This document shows positions 1 to 6,308 of a stretch of DNA of 64,000 nt, one piece after another (the first letter of the stretch is position 1; each line of letters begins with the position of its first letter). The notes beneath the pieces were generated by a model. The model was not told where the DNA came from. It made no database searches and was given only the letters and a program-made list of their open reading frames with translations. Position numbers and translations under genes: made by a program. The stretch is from Comamonas sp. (lineage in GTDB: Bacteria; Pseudomonadota; Gammaproteobacteria; Burkholderiales; Burkholderiaceae_C). The stretch lies in contig JAQVCA010000003.1 of assembly GCA_028690035.1 (NCBI GenBank), forward strand, positions 124,001 to 188,000, written 5' to 3'.

Positions 1-501
1 CCCTTTCTCGATGCCGTGCTCGCTCCAGTAATCGGTGAGCTTGTTGCGCGTTTCCTGGCCGGTCATGCGCTGGGCAATCCACTTGTCGCTGCGGCCTTGC
101 TGCTGCCAGGTTTGGCGCGCACGCTCCAGCGCCTGGGCCGGATCAGCAATCTCCTGCATGCGCTCGTAGCCCACCTTGGCCAGCCACCGCTTGATGGGTT
201 CGGCCTTGGGGCTGGGGATGGATTGCACGATGCGCAGCAGGCTCTGGGCGGTGGCGCAGTCGGTTTCGCGCTGCTTTCCATCAGGGGCCGTCAATTTCAA
301 CCTTACGATTTTTTCGTAAGGTTGCTCAGAACCAGCCTCCTGCGCCAGCTTGCGCTTGAGGTCAGACCAGTACCGGTTGGCGTTGGTGCTACCGGTCAGC
401 ACCTGCACGATGTCGATGACCGAGAACCACCAGGTCTCAGTGGCTTCGTCGTACACGCGGCGGATGGCCTGGCCGTCGAATTGGGTGGGCAGGATTTTCA
501 T
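1..501 (-). CDS. Bro-N (BRO family / phage antirepressor-like) protein, 3' end beyond window
   Basis: Reading the minus strand from an ATG at 499-501 gives 167 codons open to the window edge. The N-terminal ~100 residues look like a Bro-N domain: 'WWFSVIDIVQVLTGS' near residues 24-38 followed by a region ending 'SIPSPKAEPIKRWLAKVGYE'. This layout is typical of BRO-family proteins found in phages and bacterial chromosomes, which are DNA-binding in the cases studied. The gene starts only 13 bp after the cas7 stop, in the same direction, so it is probably co-transcribed with the cas genes; only a weak GGGG Shine-Dalgarno-like run precedes it. In ordinary type I-C operons the next gene after cas7 is cas4. 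Family call is confident; role in the operon is unknown. Confidence 0.8.
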   Translation of the reverse strand, partial: MKILPTQFDGQAIRRVYDEATETWWFSVIDIVQVLTGSTNANRYWSDLKRKLAQEAGSEQPYEKIVRLKLTAPDGKQRETDCATAQSLLRIVQSIPSPKAEPIKRWLAKVGYERMQEIADPAQALERARQTWQQQGRSDKWIAQRMTGQETRNKLTDYWSEHGIEKG

Positions 502-514
502 GCGTGGCCCCGGG

Positions 515-1513
515 TCAGAAAAGCCGGGTCAAGGTCACGCCCGCTGCGGGTTGCAGCGATTGCCCTACGGCCAGACTTTGGCCATCAAAGGTGACCGTAT
601 AGGCATCAAAGCTGCGCGCCACGGTACCAGCTTCTTTGGGCTGGACTTGCAGGCACTCAAACAAAGCGTGCGCCGGGGCGTTACCCAGTTCGCTGTCGTG
701 CTGGAACACGTACAGCCCGCGCGTGGACATTTCGCCGCGTGCAGCCGAGCGGTCGTGCTCAAACATCTGGCCCAGCGCCTGCCACAGCAGCTGCAGGTCG
801 TCGGCACCAAAGCCGGTTTGCTTGGCCAGGAAGGACGAGACAAAGCCGTGGGCCACGTACACGCCATAGGGCACGGTGTGCTTGCGGCCCATGGTGCGGT
901 TGTCGCCTTGCTGCTTTTCTGCCTCAGCCTCGGTGGCAACGGCCATGCGGGTGATGGAGTGCTCCAACGCCACGATGGGCTCCACCGACCGCGCAAAGGT
1001 GAGCTGCACCGGGCCGCGCACCTGGCCGCAGTTGATCCCGGTGGACATGACGGCGCCAAAGGTACGCACATCAAAAAAGTTCTGGCACATCCATTGGCGC
1101 GCCAGGGCCACTTCGTCGGCGCTGCCTTTGCGCTTGTCTTTGGCGGGTTTTTTCTTTTTGGCGTCTGTTGCTTCGTTTTCTGTAGCTGCTGGCGCTTTCT
1201 CCTCGGGCGTTACAGCCAGATTTAACGCTGAATAAGCGCGCTCATGTTGCAGGTTGAGGATGGCTTTTTCGCGCACGTAGATTTCAAAGCGCTTTTCGCC
1301 ATCCATAGGCGCGCGCTCGTCTTGTTCTTTCACCAGCCCGACAAAGTTGCGCACTTTGCGCTTGAGCGATACATCGGTCACCAGGCCATGGCCAGATTCA
1401 GCATCCAGGCGCGGCATATTGCCCGCGTCGGGATCGCCGTTGGGGTTGCCGTCTTTGACATCAAAAATCAGCACAAAGTCATAGCGGTGGGCAAGGGGTT
1501 GGGCGGGGCTCAT
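515..1513 (-). CDS. cas7c: Type I-C Cascade backbone protein Cas7 (Csd2)
   Basis: This 332-residue protein is the Cas7 subunit that polymerises along the crRNA spacer to form the Cascade filament. The N-terminal block '[19 protein letters not shown]' is the hallmark of the Csd2/Csh2 family, and '[19 protein letters not shown]' matches the conserved core. Its ATG overlaps the cas8c stop in an ATGA, which indicates translational coupling. A lysine-rich, low-complexity stretch around residues 105-130 ([14 protein letters not shown]) looks like a surface-loop insertion. The gene order cas3-cas5-cas8-cas7 supports subtype I-C. Confidence 0.96.
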
Positions 1514-1902
1514 GCGGGTGTTCCTTCCGTGTTGGTGGTGGTGTGCGCGGTGGCGTCGGTTTTTTTGCTGAAAAAGTCTTGCCGCTGGTGGTAGTAGCCC
1601 AAGGCAAAGCGGCCTTGGTCGGGCAGCGGCAAGTGCTTGGGAAATTCGCTGACCGGGCCGAGCACTTCGCCCAGCAGCTTCTCAAACTGGGCGGTGCGCC
1701 CGGCGGAGAGTTTTTTCAGGTGGGCGTTTTTCAGGCGCAGCAAGGTGGTGAACACCGCCACCGGTGTGCTGGAAGCCGCGCCGTAATAGCGGTCGCGGAT
1801 GGTGGCGTTCAGCCCGGGGCTGGCTTCTTCCTGGATTTTTTCCAGCACCGCAAAGAGCCGCCCCAGGCGGTAGGCCGGGTGCGTGTTGCTGAGGTCGAGC
1901 AT
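1510..1902 (-). CDS. cas11c: Nested small subunit Cas11c, internal start inside cas8c
   Basis: Inside cas8c, codon 496 is ATG (1900-1902), preceded 9 nt upstream by AAGGAG (minus-strand reading of 1912-1917, within AAAAGGAG). Initiation here would give a 130-residue protein identical to the Cas8c C-terminus, starting '[14 protein letters not shown]'. Type I-C systems studied experimentally make Cas11c by internal initiation from cas8c, and the expected product is about this size. The Shine-Dalgarno match and spacing are seen directly; that the protein is made here is inferred. Confidence 0.75.
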
Positions 1903-3387
1903 GGGCAAAAACTCCTTTTCAAGTAAGTGCGGTGGCGCAGAAAGGTTGGCTCGGCGTATCTGTCGATTGAGGTAGGCTTTGATGGCAGCCGCCCTGGCAT
2001 ATGGAACGTTCTGTGCCTGCGCGCCTTGTTGGGTTTTCTTGGCCTGCTCTGCACGGCAGCGCCCTACGGCGGCGTTGAGCCACATCGCTGGATAGGGGGC
2101 GTTTTCACCGGCAAAAATGGCATCCACGATGGCGCCACCCAAATTGGGCGGTAGGCGATCCATGTCGCCAAACGGTTGTTTACTGGTGGCCAGACAAACC
2201 GTCTGCAGCAAGCGTTTCAAACTGGGGTACTGCGCGTCGTGCGGGCCACGCACCAAGGCCACATCCTCGAAATGCTGGGCGATGCGCTGGCCCAGCTCCC
2301 GCAAAGTCACGCAGTGAAAAAAGCGCACGCTGATGCGCGCCGCGTTCGGTGCCAGGCCCAGCACGTAAAAGCGCAGGGTCTCATCCGACTGGCCCCATTT
2401 GCCACTGTGAACAGCCTGCAGCAGGGCCTGCACGGCGCGGGTGCCTGCGTCGGGATCGTCCTTGGGCGGGTCGCCAAAAATGTCGGCGGGCAGCGTTTCA
2501 AATTCGGTCTCGCGCTCGGCCCAGAACACGGTGGAGGCATCGCCCACCTGCACGCGCTGGGGCGAGTCTTGGCGCAGCAGGTGGTTCAGCGCGGTGGTGT
2601 AGGCAAAAGCAGCGGCGCGGCTGACCGGGGCGTTTTCCCCTTGGCGCTCGGTTTTGCCGTAGGACTCGAAGGCACGCGCGTTGAACGAGACGATGTTGGC
2701 ACCGGATGTTTGTGCGCCCCACACGCCCTTGATGGCAGTGTGTAAGCGCTCCACAGGGGCGTGCTCGCCAGTGACCAGGCACATCGCCTGGGGCGCATCG
2801 TCCTGGCCAGCGGTGTTGAGCGCTGCCTGCACCACGGCGGGGCGCTGGCACACCAAGTCCAGATCGCCGTGCAGGCGAAAGCTCAATACCGGGTTGGTTG
2901 CCAGCACATCGCCCCACCCGGGCTGGCACTCCAATCGCTCTGTGTGCGCACTTTGCAGAAATTTCAGTACCGCGATGATCCCCGTGTCCTGCAAGGCTGT
3001 TGCCGAAAGCGCCTGAATTTTTGCCACAAACATCGCTTGCATCTGTTTCAAGCGTTCGCGGTACTCACCCTCCTTGCCTTTCTTTTTGTTTTCTTCCAGC
3101 TTCTTGGTGTCGGGCACGCCCAGCACGTATTCGGCGTTGTCCCACAGCAGGTTGGCGGCTACGCCGGAGGTCTTTTTGATGCCCATCGGCACCTTGAAAA
3201 CACGGCCCACTTTTTTCTTGCCCTGCAGTTCGCGCGTGTCGCGCAGTTGCAGCAGTTCGCCCTCGGCGGTGATTTCCAGAATGAACGGGATTTCCTTTTG
3301 CTCCAGCCCGAACAGCGGTAGATGCTGCGCGGGGTCAGGGTCATCGCATTTGCGGCGGTAGTAGTCGCTCAGGGCTTGCAAGATCAT
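1510..3387 (-). CDS. cas8c: Type I-C Cascade large subunit Cas8c (Csd1)
   Basis: This 625-residue protein is the large subunit that recognises the PAM and helps position target DNA. The start '[16 protein letters not shown]' is characteristic of the Csd1/Cas8c family, and the length is within the usual 570-650 range. The start codon overlaps the end of cas5c by 4 bp and the stop overlaps cas7 by 4 bp, so the three genes are translationally coupled. The C-terminal 130 residues match the portion that is separately translated as the small subunit Cas11c in type I-C systems; an internal ATG with a good Shine-Dalgarno lies exactly there (see the nested entry). Confidence 0.95.
1912..1917 (-). promoter_or_regulatory. 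Internal Shine-Dalgarno for Cas11c
   Basis: AAGGAG on the minus strand, 9 nt before the internal ATG of cas8c. It falls in codons for Lys-Glu (AAG GAG), so the site is embedded in coding sequence. Confidence 0.7.
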
Positions 3388-4040
3388 CCGCGTGTCTCCT
3401 CGAACGGCGGCACCTGCACCACGCCACGCTCCATCTTCGCGTTGAAAAAGCGTGGCTGCGGGTCGGCGGGGTTCGAAAAATCTAGGTCGTGCAGCATCCA
3501 GCCCAGCTCGCGCGTGTCCTCAATAGGTGGGGCCTGGGGCGCGTCGGCAGTGACCAAACGGAAGTCGGCGGCGAACTCGCGGCAGCCCAGGTAGGGCTGG
3601 TTCACACACTGGCCTTTGCGGGCGCGGCGGGTGAACATTTCGGTGTATTTCATCAAGGGCTCGGTGCAGCCCGGTGCCAGTGCCAGATCGGCATGGATGC
3701 GATAGGCCACATCGCGCAAAAAGTAGCCCGCACGCTGCTGGCGCTCGTCTTCGATATACAGGCCCAGCGTGCCGCTGCCCGCTGCCATGGCCTGCTGCAC
3801 ATTGCGTGTGGACACCACGGCGCTGACCTCATTGCGCCGCAGGTTGATCCAGCGGATGGGCTTGAGCACTTCAATGCGCTGCACGCGCCAGCGAATGGCG
3901 GGTTTCCACAAAATGGACTCGAACACGGCGCGGGCGGCGGACGGCGTCATCACGTCGTAGGACACGCGCTCCACCTTCATCTCCGGGCGGGTAAAGCAGG
4001 CGAAGGGGCCTGCGACTTCAAGGCAAAAGCGGGATGACAT
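3384..4040 (-). CDS. cas5c: Type I-C Cas5 (Cas5c/Cas5d), pre-crRNA endonuclease
   Basis: This 218-residue RAMP protein belongs to the Cas5d group. In type I-C systems, which lack Cas6, Cas5 cleaves pre-crRNA and then caps the 5' handle in Cascade. The N-terminal 'LEVAGPFACFTRPEMKVERVSYDVMTPSAARA' region is typical of the family: the first beta strand, the F/R turn and the 'YDVMTPSAARG-like' motif. No cas6 is visible in the window, as expected for I-C. It begins 9 bp after cas3 and overlaps cas8c by 4 bp. Confidence 0.95.
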   Translation of the reverse strand: MSSRFCLEVAGPFACFTRPEMKVERVSYDVMTPSAARAVFESILWKPAIRWRVQRIEVLKPIRWINLRRNEVSAVVSTRNVQQAMAAGSGTLGLYIEDERQQRAGYFLRDVAYRIHADLALAPGCTEPLMKYTEMFTRRARKGQCVNQPYLGCREFAADFRLVTADAPQAPPIEDTRELGWMLHDLDFSNPADPQPRFFNAKMERGVVQVPPFEETRG

Positions 4041-4049
4041 GAAGCTCCT

Positions 4050-6308
4050 TTACAAGACAAAAGCGCTGGGCTGGTAGAGGTCGGCATCGCCCGCCAAACC
4101 CAGAATATCACTGTATAAATTGTCAGCATCGGCCAGCACATACAGCCCCGGCACGGGCAGCGAGAGGTCGCCTTGCGCCAGCATCTTGTCAGCCTGGCGT
4201 TTCGGGATGCTGACGGTGTAACGCTGCAGCTTGCGCATCAGCCAGCGCTGCGGGCCTTGGGTGGCCAAAATGGCCAGCCATTGTTCGATGGCCTCGCGCT
4301 GCGGCGCGTAGCGCACCAGCACGCTGGCTTGATCGGCATCGTCGATCAGCTTGAACTTCTCGGCAGCCGAGCGAAATTGCACCGCCAAGCTGCGCGGTTC
4401 CACCTTGAGCAGGCCGGTGATGCCGTGCGCGTCCACATCTACCGAGTGATAGAACTCGGTGAAGTAGCGTGCAAACAGGCCACGCGCCAGCGGGTCGTGC
4501 GCTTGGCCATGCAGGGTGGCAATGCACGCATCTGCGCCTTGGCGCAGGTGGCCTGGCGGGGCTGGCTCAGGCGGCACAAACACCACCACGCGCCCCATGC
4601 CTGGCAGCTGCCCTTCACGGTTGCAGCGGCCAGCGGCCTGGGCGATGGAGTCGAGCCCCGCCAACGCGCGGTACACCACGGGAAAGTCAATGTCCACGCC
4701 CGCCTCCACCAGCTGGGTGCTGACCACGCGCAGGGGGCGCAGATCGCGCCCGGTGCGTTTGGCTTGCAGGCGTTGTTTGATTTCGGCAATGACATCCTTG
4801 CGGTGTGCGCCGCACATCAGCGCCGACAGGTGCAATGTGCCCTCGGGCATCAGGCGCTGCAGCTCACGCGCGGCTTTGCGGGTGTTGACGATGGCCAGCA
4901 CGCAATCCTCGGCGCCGAGCTGCGCGGCCACATCGGCCCAGGGCGTAGGCGTTGTCCAGTCGGGTGGCAGTTCCACCTGCACGCGCTTCAGCGCCTGGTA
5001 CAAAGCATCGGGGTCGTCGATGATTTCGCGCACGTTGTGTAGCCCACGCAGGTTTTTTCTGGCGTCAAAGTAGGCCGTGCTGTTCAGCGCGGGTTGGGTG
5101 GCAGTACACAGCAGTACCGTCACGCCGTAGTGCGCCACCAGCAGTTTGAGCACGTCCAGAATGGGTTGCAGAAACGCGGGCGGCAGTTGCTGCGCCTCGT
5201 CCAGCACGATGACGCTGCCCGCCAAGTTGTGCAGCTTGCGGCAGCGTGAGGTTTTGGCGGCAAACAACGACTCGAACAACTGCACGTTGGTGGTGACGAC
5301 CAGCGGCGCATCCCAGTTTTCGCAGGCCAGACGGCTGCGCGCAGTTTCGTCCTTCTCGGCGGCGTCAAACTGGCTGTGGTGTTCGATCAGCACCTCATCA
5401 CCCAGCAGCTTGAAGACCTTGCGGAACACATCCGCCGTCTGCTCAATGATGCTGGTGTAGGGAATCGCATAGACGATGCGGCGCTTGCCGTGCGCCAGCG
5501 CATGCTCCAGCGCAAAGGCCAGGCTGGAGAGAGTTTTGCCGCCGCCCGTTGGCACCGTGAGCGAGAAGAAGCCCGCTGGCAAGGCCGCCTTGGCACGGCA
5601 CTGGCGCAGGATGTCTGCGCGCAAGGTGTTCACCGGGGTGTCCGCAACCGGCATGGCTGCCATGTGCACGTCGAGCGCCTGCCGCATCTGCGCCAGTGTC
5701 GGAAAACCTTCGCGGCGGGCGGGCCTGCCCGCGTCGAAGTGTGCCTCCGTGTCGAGGAAGTCAGCATCCACCAGGCAGGAGAACAGCATACGCACCCACA
5801 AGGCAAAGCCGGTCGCACCACCAGGAATCTGCGCGACCAGATTTCCATGCGCTAAAAGCTCCGCTGGGGGACTGGCCGCCAGCGTGTCTTGCAGTTCCTG
5901 CTGGGCGTCTTCGCCTTGCAATCGCTCTTTCAACCCAACATGCCAATCGTCCAGCCCCACATGGTGGCCTGCAATCAAGTACGCCAGGATGTGGCCATAG
6001 GGGCGGCCTGGTTGGTTCAGCTGCTGCATGGCCCACAGTGCCCCGGCAGCGGAATGCGTTTTCTCGCGCCCGCCTACTTTGCCTTCGATGTGCGCGTTCT
6101 CACCATCGGCCAGGCGCACATACCGCTGAAACCCGGGTCGGTATTTGCCTAGGTCGTGCCACAGGCCCGCCAGATAGGCCCAGCGCTGTGTGGGTTCAGT
6201 ACTGCCATCAAAAGCTTGAGAAAACTCTGCAGCAAGCGCTGCAACTTTTTTGAGATGCTCTTGCAGCAGATGCCCACCGGAGTGGGCCCAAGCAGGCGTA
6301 GATGACAC
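4050..6308 (-). CDS. cas3: CRISPR-associated helicase/nuclease Cas3 (HD + DEAD-box), type I-C
   Basis: This 752-residue protein is the effector that degrades target DNA after Cascade binding. The N-terminal HD nuclease has 'HD' at residues 51-52 and 'GHH' near 114-116. The helicase part carries Walker A 'PTGGGKT' (253-259), a DEAH-like box 'DEAQ' (370-373), 'CTATQPA', and motif VI 'QAAGRCNREG'. The start is GTG at 6306-6308, chosen because GGAGG lies a few bases upstream (6314-6318 on the minus strand). It begins 23 bp downstream of the pyrC stop on the same strand, which suggests read-through from pyrC or a promoter inside pyrC. Confidence 0.95.
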   Translation of the reverse strand: MSSTPAWAHSGGHLLQEHLKKVAALAAEFSQAFDGSTEPTQRWAYLAGLWHDLGKYRPGFQRYVRLADGENAHIEGKVGGREKTHSAAGALWAMQQLNQPGRPYGHILAYLIAGHHVGLDDWHVGLKERLQGEDAQQELQDTLAASPPAELLAHGNLVAQIPGGATGFALWVRMLFSCLVDADFLDTEAHFDAGRPARREGFPTLAQMRQALDVHMAAMPVADTPVNTLRADILRQCRAKAALPAGFFSLTVPTGGGKTLSSLAFALEHALAHGKRRIVYAIPYTSIIEQTADVFRKVFKLLGDEVLIEHHSQFDAAEKDETARSRLACENWDAPLVVTTNVQLFESLFAAKTSRCRKLHNLAGSVIVLDEAQQLPPAFLQPILDVLKLLVAHYGVTVLLCTATQPALNSTAYFDARKNLRGLHNVREIIDDPDALYQALKRVQVELPPDWTTPTPWADVAAQLGAEDCVLAIVNTRKAARELQRLMPEGTLHLSALMCGAHRKDVIAEIKQRLQAKRTGRDLRPLRVVSTQLVEAGVDIDFPVVYRALAGLDSIAQAAGRCNREGQLPGMGRVVVFVPPEPAPPGHLRQGADACIATLHGQAHDPLARGLFARYFTEFYHSVDVDAHGITGLLKVEPRSLAVQFRSAAEKFKLIDDADQASVLVRYAPQREAIEQWLAILATQGPQRWLMRKLQRYTVSIPKRQADKMLAQGDLSLPVPGLYVLADADNLYSDILGLAGDADLYQPSAFVL

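Follow-up and report, generated by a model that had tools for sequence, protein, structure and literature searches.

A gene encoding a protein with a Bro-N domain lies in a type I-C operon of the CRISPR type (clustered regularly interspaced short palindromic repeats) in Comamonas sp. The window, that is, the whole stretch of DNA that was analysed, comprises 64,000 nucleotides (assembly GCA_028690035.1, contig JAQVCA010000003.1, positions 124,001 to 188,000 of the forward strand), and the gene crosses its first edge. The whole gene occupies contig positions 123602-124501 and encodes 299 amino acids (aa), the part outside the window preceding position 1. It stands where the effector genes meet the adaptation genes, recurs in the cas operons of other genomes, and diverges in step with cas4 and cas1. 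It may be an overlooked helper of CRISPR and restriction defences.

The Bro-N Gene Within a Type I-C Operon

The first-pass annotation of the window had placed a Bro-N gene 13 bp past cas7 in a type I-C operon, and the open reading frame (ORF) coordinates and the Pfam and NCBIfam matches agree with it. By Pfam, the neighbouring proteins are Cas7, Csd1 (Cas8c), Cas5d, Cas3, Cas4, Cas1, and Cas2, and NCBIfam assigns the I-C type via Cas7, Cas8c, Cas5c, and Cas1c. Following the contig past the window, as that annotation had proposed, places the cas4 ATG 5 bp past the end of the Bro-N gene, then cas1, cas2, and an array with 24 copies of the repeat GTTTCAATCCACGCCCGCCATTGCTGACGGGCGAAC. With cas7 on one side and cas4-cas1-cas2 and the array on the other, the Bro-N gene is therefore located inside an intact I-C operon, in which the cas3-cas5c-cas8c-cas7 effector genes, the adaptation genes, and the array of this type are all found (Table 1).

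A promoter and a terminator belonging to the Bro-N gene alone had been named as signs of an independent gene. In a consensus scan of L003:2400-11600, no terminator-like site was found on the operon strand in the gene or at its two junctions, and no promoter-like site was found in the whole span (mean of 1.3 in shuffled sequences). The absence of promoters is weak evidence, because the span holds about 290 bp 5' of cas3, where the operon promoter is expected.

Table 1. Features of the type I-C operon within the window
Feature	Position in window	Strand	Basis
Bro-N gene, N-terminal 167 codons	1..501	(-)	ORF calling; Pfam Bro-N; Foldseek DdrC
Gap from cas7 stop to Bro-N ATG, 13 bp	502..514	(-)	Promoter/terminator-like sites: 0 found
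cas7 (Csd2), type I-C	515..1513	(-)	Pfam Cas_Cas7 7.6e-104; TIGR02589 8.5e-120
cas8c (Csd1), 4-bp overlap with cas7	1510..3387	(-)	TIGR01863 2.9e-160
cas5c	3384..4040	(-)	TIGR01876 4e-57
cas3, first gene of the operon	4050..6308	(-)	Pfam Cas3 HD, DEAD, and Cas3-like C-terminal domains

Occurrence in CRISPR Loci

At least 539 relatives were confirmed in the genome collection, and the best 80 of these were examined for their neighbours. CRISPR-linked loci account for 25 of the 80, a proportion that is no unbiased rate because the 80 loci are those nearest to a cas-linked query. In 20 of the 80, the Bro-N gene is located 5' of cas4-cas1-cas2 on the same strand; 547-714 bp separate it from cas4 in L040, L041, L051, and L059, and an extra stretch separates cas4 from cas1 in L038, L049, and L058. 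In L077 and L100 it is found between cas4 and cas1, starting 11 bp inside cas4 and overlapping the cas1 start by 4 bp with its stop. It stands 5' of cas3 in L093; in L036, an array of 12 repeats and a cas7-like stretch of 34 residues lie close to it. Finally, a type I-Fv locus (L099:874-7047) has the order cas3 fragment, cas7fv, a further ORF, cas6f, the Bro-N gene, and a 39-repeat array. Neighbouring cas genes were sought with I-C and I-C-like queries, with which array-less loci of other cas types could be missed; besides L099, no further array of at least three repeats was found in the loci not labelled as cas among the 80 plus 40 loci.

The adjacency, which the first pass had suggested looking for elsewhere, recurs in many genomes. 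In the family-level sample, cas8c is present in 53 of 399 genomes, and 12 of these 53, the window's genome included, have the Bro-N gene between cas7 and cas4. The cas7-cas4 junction is off the contig in L144 and L194; three of the 11 family-sample matches repeat loci of the 80, and L222 and L224 repeat L087 and L106. At class level, Cas1c was matched in 33 of 369 genomes (32 over the cut-off), and three of the 30 loci read with 1.5-kb flanks contain the Bro-N gene, one of them being the window's locus; between cas4 and cas1 it is found in L266 (a partial match) and L272. A one-off insertion was thus rejected, since the placement in cas operons recurs in other genomes. A sample at order/phylum level is made up of 40 chosen places, short fragments and repeats having been left out; arrays occur in none of the 40.

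Evolution With the Adaptation Genes

Trees were obtained by quick searches without bootstrap after 13 rows (duplicates, fragments, and odd frames) had been dropped, and the later analyses are also made without 12 long-branch rows; L099 is still labelled unlinked in all trees and clade tests. The "cas-linked" label changes nine times on the tree of 107 proteins (27.8 in shuffles), with starred branches forcing six changes, and again nine times on that of residues 91-266 alone (95 rows). A single clade of all 32 cas-linked rows alone was rejected by the approximately unbiased (AU) test (p-AU 2.6e-9), in part because of nested unlinked rows. The free tree separates L077, L093, and L100 from the Burkholderiales group and joins them with L099 in a starred group; in the tree of residues 91-266, the smallest group of these three holds L094 instead. 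Even if the tree does not prove it, more than one entry into CRISPR loci is favoured, from the free tree and from the three placements of the gene, before cas4, between cas4 and cas1, and after cas6f.

Co-divergence was measured over the 15 I-C loci with all genes readable, a set that leaves out the window's locus. The distances of the Bro-N protein correlate with those of cas4 at 0.64 and cas1 at 0.58, and with those of cas5 at 0.34, cas7 at 0.30, cas2 at 0.28, and cas8 at 0.23; for comparison, cas1 and cas4 correlate with each other at 0.56. Residues 91-266 give 0.78 for cas4, 0.50 for cas1, 0.41 for cas7, 0.32 for cas5, 0.31 for cas2, and 0.25 for cas8. The block made up of the Bro-N gene, cas4, cas1, and cas2 is joined to three effector sets, namely the usual I-C set, a divergent I-C set, and a very divergent one. 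In the L040 type, Cas5c, Cas8c, and Cas7c score over their cut-offs; the L054 type is below cut-off. From the co-divergence and the joining of modules, the behaviour of the gene in I-C loci is largely that of an adaptation-block member. Linkage and co-inheritance with cas4 and cas1, as required of an adaptation accessory, are both found, co-inheritance being weak with cas2. A median ratio of nonsynonymous to synonymous substitution (dN/dS) of 0.18 over 22 cas-linked loci indicates purifying selection on the Bro-N gene.

The divergent effector sets were seen in L040, L054, L058, and L059 and probably in L186 and L187. The gene order in L054 and L058 is cas5, a second gene, cas7, and cas3, and the second gene of L054 (751 aa) has no NCBIfam match.

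Domain Composition and Predicted Fold

The Pfam Bro-N domain (PF02498) is found at residues 15-109 (E 3.1e-9), with 37.8 bits for a gathering cut-off of 25.6. DdrC, a DNA-damage protein of Deinococcus, is the only significant match of the predicted fold (Foldseek E 5e-8, with the 97%-identical protein P0004), and the predicted structure has the two-domain fold of DdrC at a root-mean-square deviation (rmsd) of about 10 Å. DdrC (PDB 7UDI, 8U0G, 7QVB) is about 17% identical to the Bro-N protein and has its domains placed differently; its hosts are different bacteria, whereas the gene described here sits in a cas operon. DdrC is reported to bind DNA without sequence specificity, to prefer single-stranded DNA (ssDNA), to protect against nucleases, and to have annealing activity (PMC5436757).

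Pfam Bro-N is also present in DinD of Escherichia coli, which resembles the Bro-N protein by BLASTP (24% identity over 141 aa) and by profile comparison (E 6e-5, probability 65%), with a similarity limited to the C-terminal ~140 residues of the latter. DinD is an SOS-induced modulator of RecA. In contrast, the gene of the window has no LexA-like box within 150 bp and is placed in a cas operon. The DinD model NF008573 is matched weakly by 11 of 84 relatives and, at E 0.1, gives no match with the window's own protein; profile searches against PDB sequences returned nothing significant. Judging from the structure model, the product probably combines a Bro-N winged helix with a helical C-terminal half of the DdrC/DinD type.

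The first-pass annotation had linked the domain to phages and mobile DNA, a view of which only part survives. PHROG 15286, a protein family of prokaryotic viruses, matches residues 8-265 with E 3e-85, so relatives do occur in (pro)viruses. Searches of 50,697 phage records and 72,556 plasmid records gave four and 14 with a relative, respectively, and a single scan of viral contigs, sensitive to close relatives only, found none. Phage Bro-N/Ant antirepressors have the N-terminal Bro-N domain in common with this protein, but their C-terminal Ant/KilA-C domain was not found in it, Pfam showing Bro-N only, and the match with the antirepressor family PHROG 2011 is weak (E 0.083). The antirepressor reading was set aside on the phage and plasmid counts, the missing Ant domain, and the DdrC fold; the PHROG 15286 match counts in its favour.

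Restriction-Modification Operons, Other Contexts, and LexA-Like Boxes

The same family is found in type I restriction-modification (RM) operons at 16 of the 80 loci, the Bro-N gene being located between or beside hsdM, hsdS, and hsdR (confirmed by Pfam for L076). In the order/phylum sample, 12 of the 40 places have hsd-like neighbours, six of them strong and six resting on matches of 25-38%. The remaining 40 of the 80 loci, L099 included, were first filed as neither cas nor type I RM, and many have no close neighbour on the same strand. Neighbours of these loci were annotated for ten proteins: a DNA methylase and a type III-like restriction gene flank the Bro-N gene in L101, a Schlafen-type gene adjoins it in L083, TerB in L081, and a sacsin-like gene and a transposase in L113; the other neighbours scanned have no link to defence or no match. 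No fixed partner gene was found in the neighbour clusters of Bro-N relatives.

A CTGT-N8-ACAG box with at most one mismatch is present within 150 bp at 11 of the 40 loci filed as neither, seven of these boxes being exact (shuffle means 1.8 and 0.1). Among the cas-linked loci, such a box was found at one of 24 (L099 excluded), among the RM loci at none of 16, and L099 itself has none; the contrast gives Fisher p 0.0016 (at most one mismatch) and 0.006 (exact), kinship of the loci being ignored. By pattern only, the best match of the window's gene has three mismatches, both within 150 bp 5' of the gene and within 300 bp 5' of its own cas3, and at this gene and eight further cas-linked loci the box has at least two mismatches. 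Thus, some unlinked relatives resemble SOS genes in this respect, a sign that is missing from the captured copies.

A LexA-type box was also seen within 300 bp 5' of cas3 in L039 (exact) and L043 (one mismatch), two of the nine loci tried besides the window's own. As far as such boxes can tell, SOS control might extend to entire I-C operons in some cases.

Exchange of Residues 36-72

Residues 36-72, which correspond to the second helix and the wing in the model, occur as at least three cassette types. Cassette identity is below 55% in 212 of 570 locus pairs whose flanks are at least 85% identical in protein sequence, and when all rows are used, 638 of the 2,886 pairs with flank identity of 90% or more show the same pattern. 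Between L048 and L074, DNA identity falls from ~90% to ~50% over codons 31-90 and then recovers. The exchange of residues 36-72 resembles the swapping of specificity domains in HsdS. The cassettes strengthen the view that the Bro-N part recognises something variable. Cassette exchange was also seen between L050 and L187 and between P0005 and P0017, in proteins elsewhere up to 99% identical.

Other Genes at the cas7-cas4 Junction

In 16 operons, other stretches of 487-1771 bp fill the cas7-cas4 junction. Those examined include, by Pfam, HicA (L170), a RelE/Xre pair (L168), and NYN (L149). By similarity to the gene of L170, HicA is also present in L263 and L280; at class level, HicA is found in two of the 30 loci. 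RhuM stands directly 5' of cas4 in L077, L100, L270, L271, and L276 (PF13310 by Pfam in L100, where its stop overlaps the cas4 start), three of the 30 class-level loci having this arrangement. The site between cas7 and cas4 thus accommodates accessory genes in general, and a cargo explanation of the Bro-N gene stays alive for this reason.

RhuM genes are known from RM operons, in which a toxin function was proposed (PMC3710099), and from type II-C systems of Bacteroides fragilis, where they are located between cas1 and cas9 (PMC5704556); these published cases likewise favour an accessory slot. Like the Bro-N gene, RhuM is a gene type common to RM and CRISPR operons at the boundary between effector and adaptation genes, but it belongs to a separate family (PF13310). 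As a sequence relative of the Bro-N protein it was rejected, there being no significant BLASTP match.

HicB-like or further HicA-like junction genes were recognised by eye in L152, L155, L161, and L189; the HicB-like ORF of L170 has no Pfam match. Further junction stretches were seen in L159, L174, L178, L183, L184, L188, L192, L193, and L195.

A Possible Role in Adaptation and Its Alternatives

From the observed linkage and the predicted fold, we infer with about even confidence that an SOS-type DNA-end-binding protein has been recruited as a CRISPR accessory, most likely of adaptation. Its expression probably depends on the cas transcript and not on a promoter under LexA control. The protein would bind ssDNA or the broken ends that Cas3 cleavage, trimming by Cas4, or the integration of spacers leaves behind, and the bound fragments could be held and protected or channelled to Cas4-Cas1-Cas2. 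Alternatively, it might stabilise the gaps and breaks that arise in target cleavage and spacer insertion. RecA would possibly be excluded from such ends. The copies in type I RM operons would fit a general role in handling DNA ends produced by translocating nucleases. A more detailed version, which we regard as possible and hold with distinctly less confidence, is that a DdrC/DinD-type break protein of the SOS regulon was domesticated, probably more than once, with the cas operon replacing its LexA promoter; it would deliver or guard ends for Cas4-Cas1-Cas2, and its recognition cassette would be reshuffled among proteins that are nearly identical elsewhere, as if tracking a changing target or inhibitor.

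To our knowledge, it is only partly understood how type I-C systems find, protect, and trim prespacers and by what means cells withstand the intermediates of their own cleavage and integration. If the recruitment is real, a break-handling protein under cas instead of SOS control that tracks cas4 and cas1 would link DNA repair to CRISPR memory. Since the family also occurs in type I RM operons and a type I-Fv locus, a single helper may be common to several DNA-cutting immune systems. Bro-N, DinD, DdrC, and I-C operons are each known; the open-access literature searched, in which DinD together with CRISPR alone was not a query, gave no report of a Bro-N gene in I-C operons and none of such a combination conserved within the adaptation block.

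Several observations weigh against a recruited adaptation accessory. At the level of the protein, the model has a predicted template modelling score (pTM) of 0.56 with the large rmsd to DdrC given above, and the equivalog cut-offs are missed both for DdrC (NF033622, 19.6 bits vs. 150) and for DinD (NF008573, 17.1 bits vs. 242, with P0004). Concerning co-inheritance, the correlation with cas2, which is itself an adaptation-block gene, is weak (0.28 and 0.31), that of residues 91-266 with cas7 has p 0.009, and the dN/dS of the Bro-N gene is the highest of the seven genes (cas8 0.175, cas4 0.14, cas7 0.14, cas5 0.11, cas1 0.09, cas2 0.09). The AU test does not reject a tree in which L077, L100, and L093 stay with the main group of 43 rows (p-AU 0.107). 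As for occurrence, none of the 40 order/phylum places is cas-linked with I-C-type queries, and only two have a LexA-like box within 200 bp (L242, exact; L219, an RM locus, one mismatch); in L099 the gene has no adjoining adaptation genes, and none was recognised in the fetched stretch. Finally, 23 fetched I-C operons do without the Bro-N gene, with cas7 and cas4 within 135 bp (alignment ends), the junction accepts the HicA, RelE/Xre, and NYN genes, and array lengths show no clear difference between loci with and without the gene, repeat counts being limited by the ~4 kb read.

The first pass had offered three options, a cargo gene, a regulator of cas expression, and a defence partner. The last is now the best supported, and the other two remain as rivals; the readings discussed here overlap, and their likelihoods are not meant to add up to certainty. 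The main rival, which we consider rather unlikely, is a tolerated cargo or addiction-like passenger in a permissive cas7-cas4 slot, with a toxin-like or guard effect of its own or simply in transit. The slot is used elsewhere by HicA, RelE/Xre, and NYN, RhuM precedes cas4 in five loci and was proposed as a toxin in RM operons (PMC3710099), and the family has many contexts, with half of the 80 loci filed as neither cas nor type I RM. However, HicA and RelE/Xre are toxin-antitoxin genes, whereas the neighbour clusters show no constant partner for the Bro-N gene, which might still be a solo toxin, and it diverges in parallel with cas4 and cas1. Purifying selection, the reading frames that overlap cas4 and cas1 in L077 and L100, and the lack of LexA-like boxes in the captured copies also speak against cargo.

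Two further explanations give the protein another task. As an interference or repair partner, it could antagonise RecA and block the recombinational rescue of cleaved phage DNA, from which type I RM and type I CRISPR systems would benefit equally. This reading overlaps with the end-binding accessory and, taken alone, is improbable: DinD acts on RecA, type I RM operons are frequent among both the 80 nearest loci and the 40 order/phylum places, and in L099 the gene adjoins cas6f and the array and stands apart from adaptation genes, but in I-C loci it is co-inherited more closely with cas4 and cas1 than with the effector genes, and only the C-terminal part of the protein resembles DinD. Least probable of all, in our judgement, is a transcriptional regulator of the cas operon whose winged helix would act on the promoter of the cas genes or of the leader. 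In its favour, the winged helix of Bro-N is a DNA-binding domain, and residues 36-72 are swapped as if specificity changed. Against this, DdrC, the sole significant fold relative, binds without sequence specificity (PMC5436757), genes of this type occur across unrelated operons, and the match with the antirepressor family is weak.

Repeat Variants

The array at L002:14662-16369 has mixed repeat variants. Five copies of GCTGGCGGGCGAAT and one of GCTGGCGGGCGAAC are found toward its leader-distal end; the remaining repeats are GCTGACGGGCGAAC or -AACT forms, and the final repeat is degenerate.
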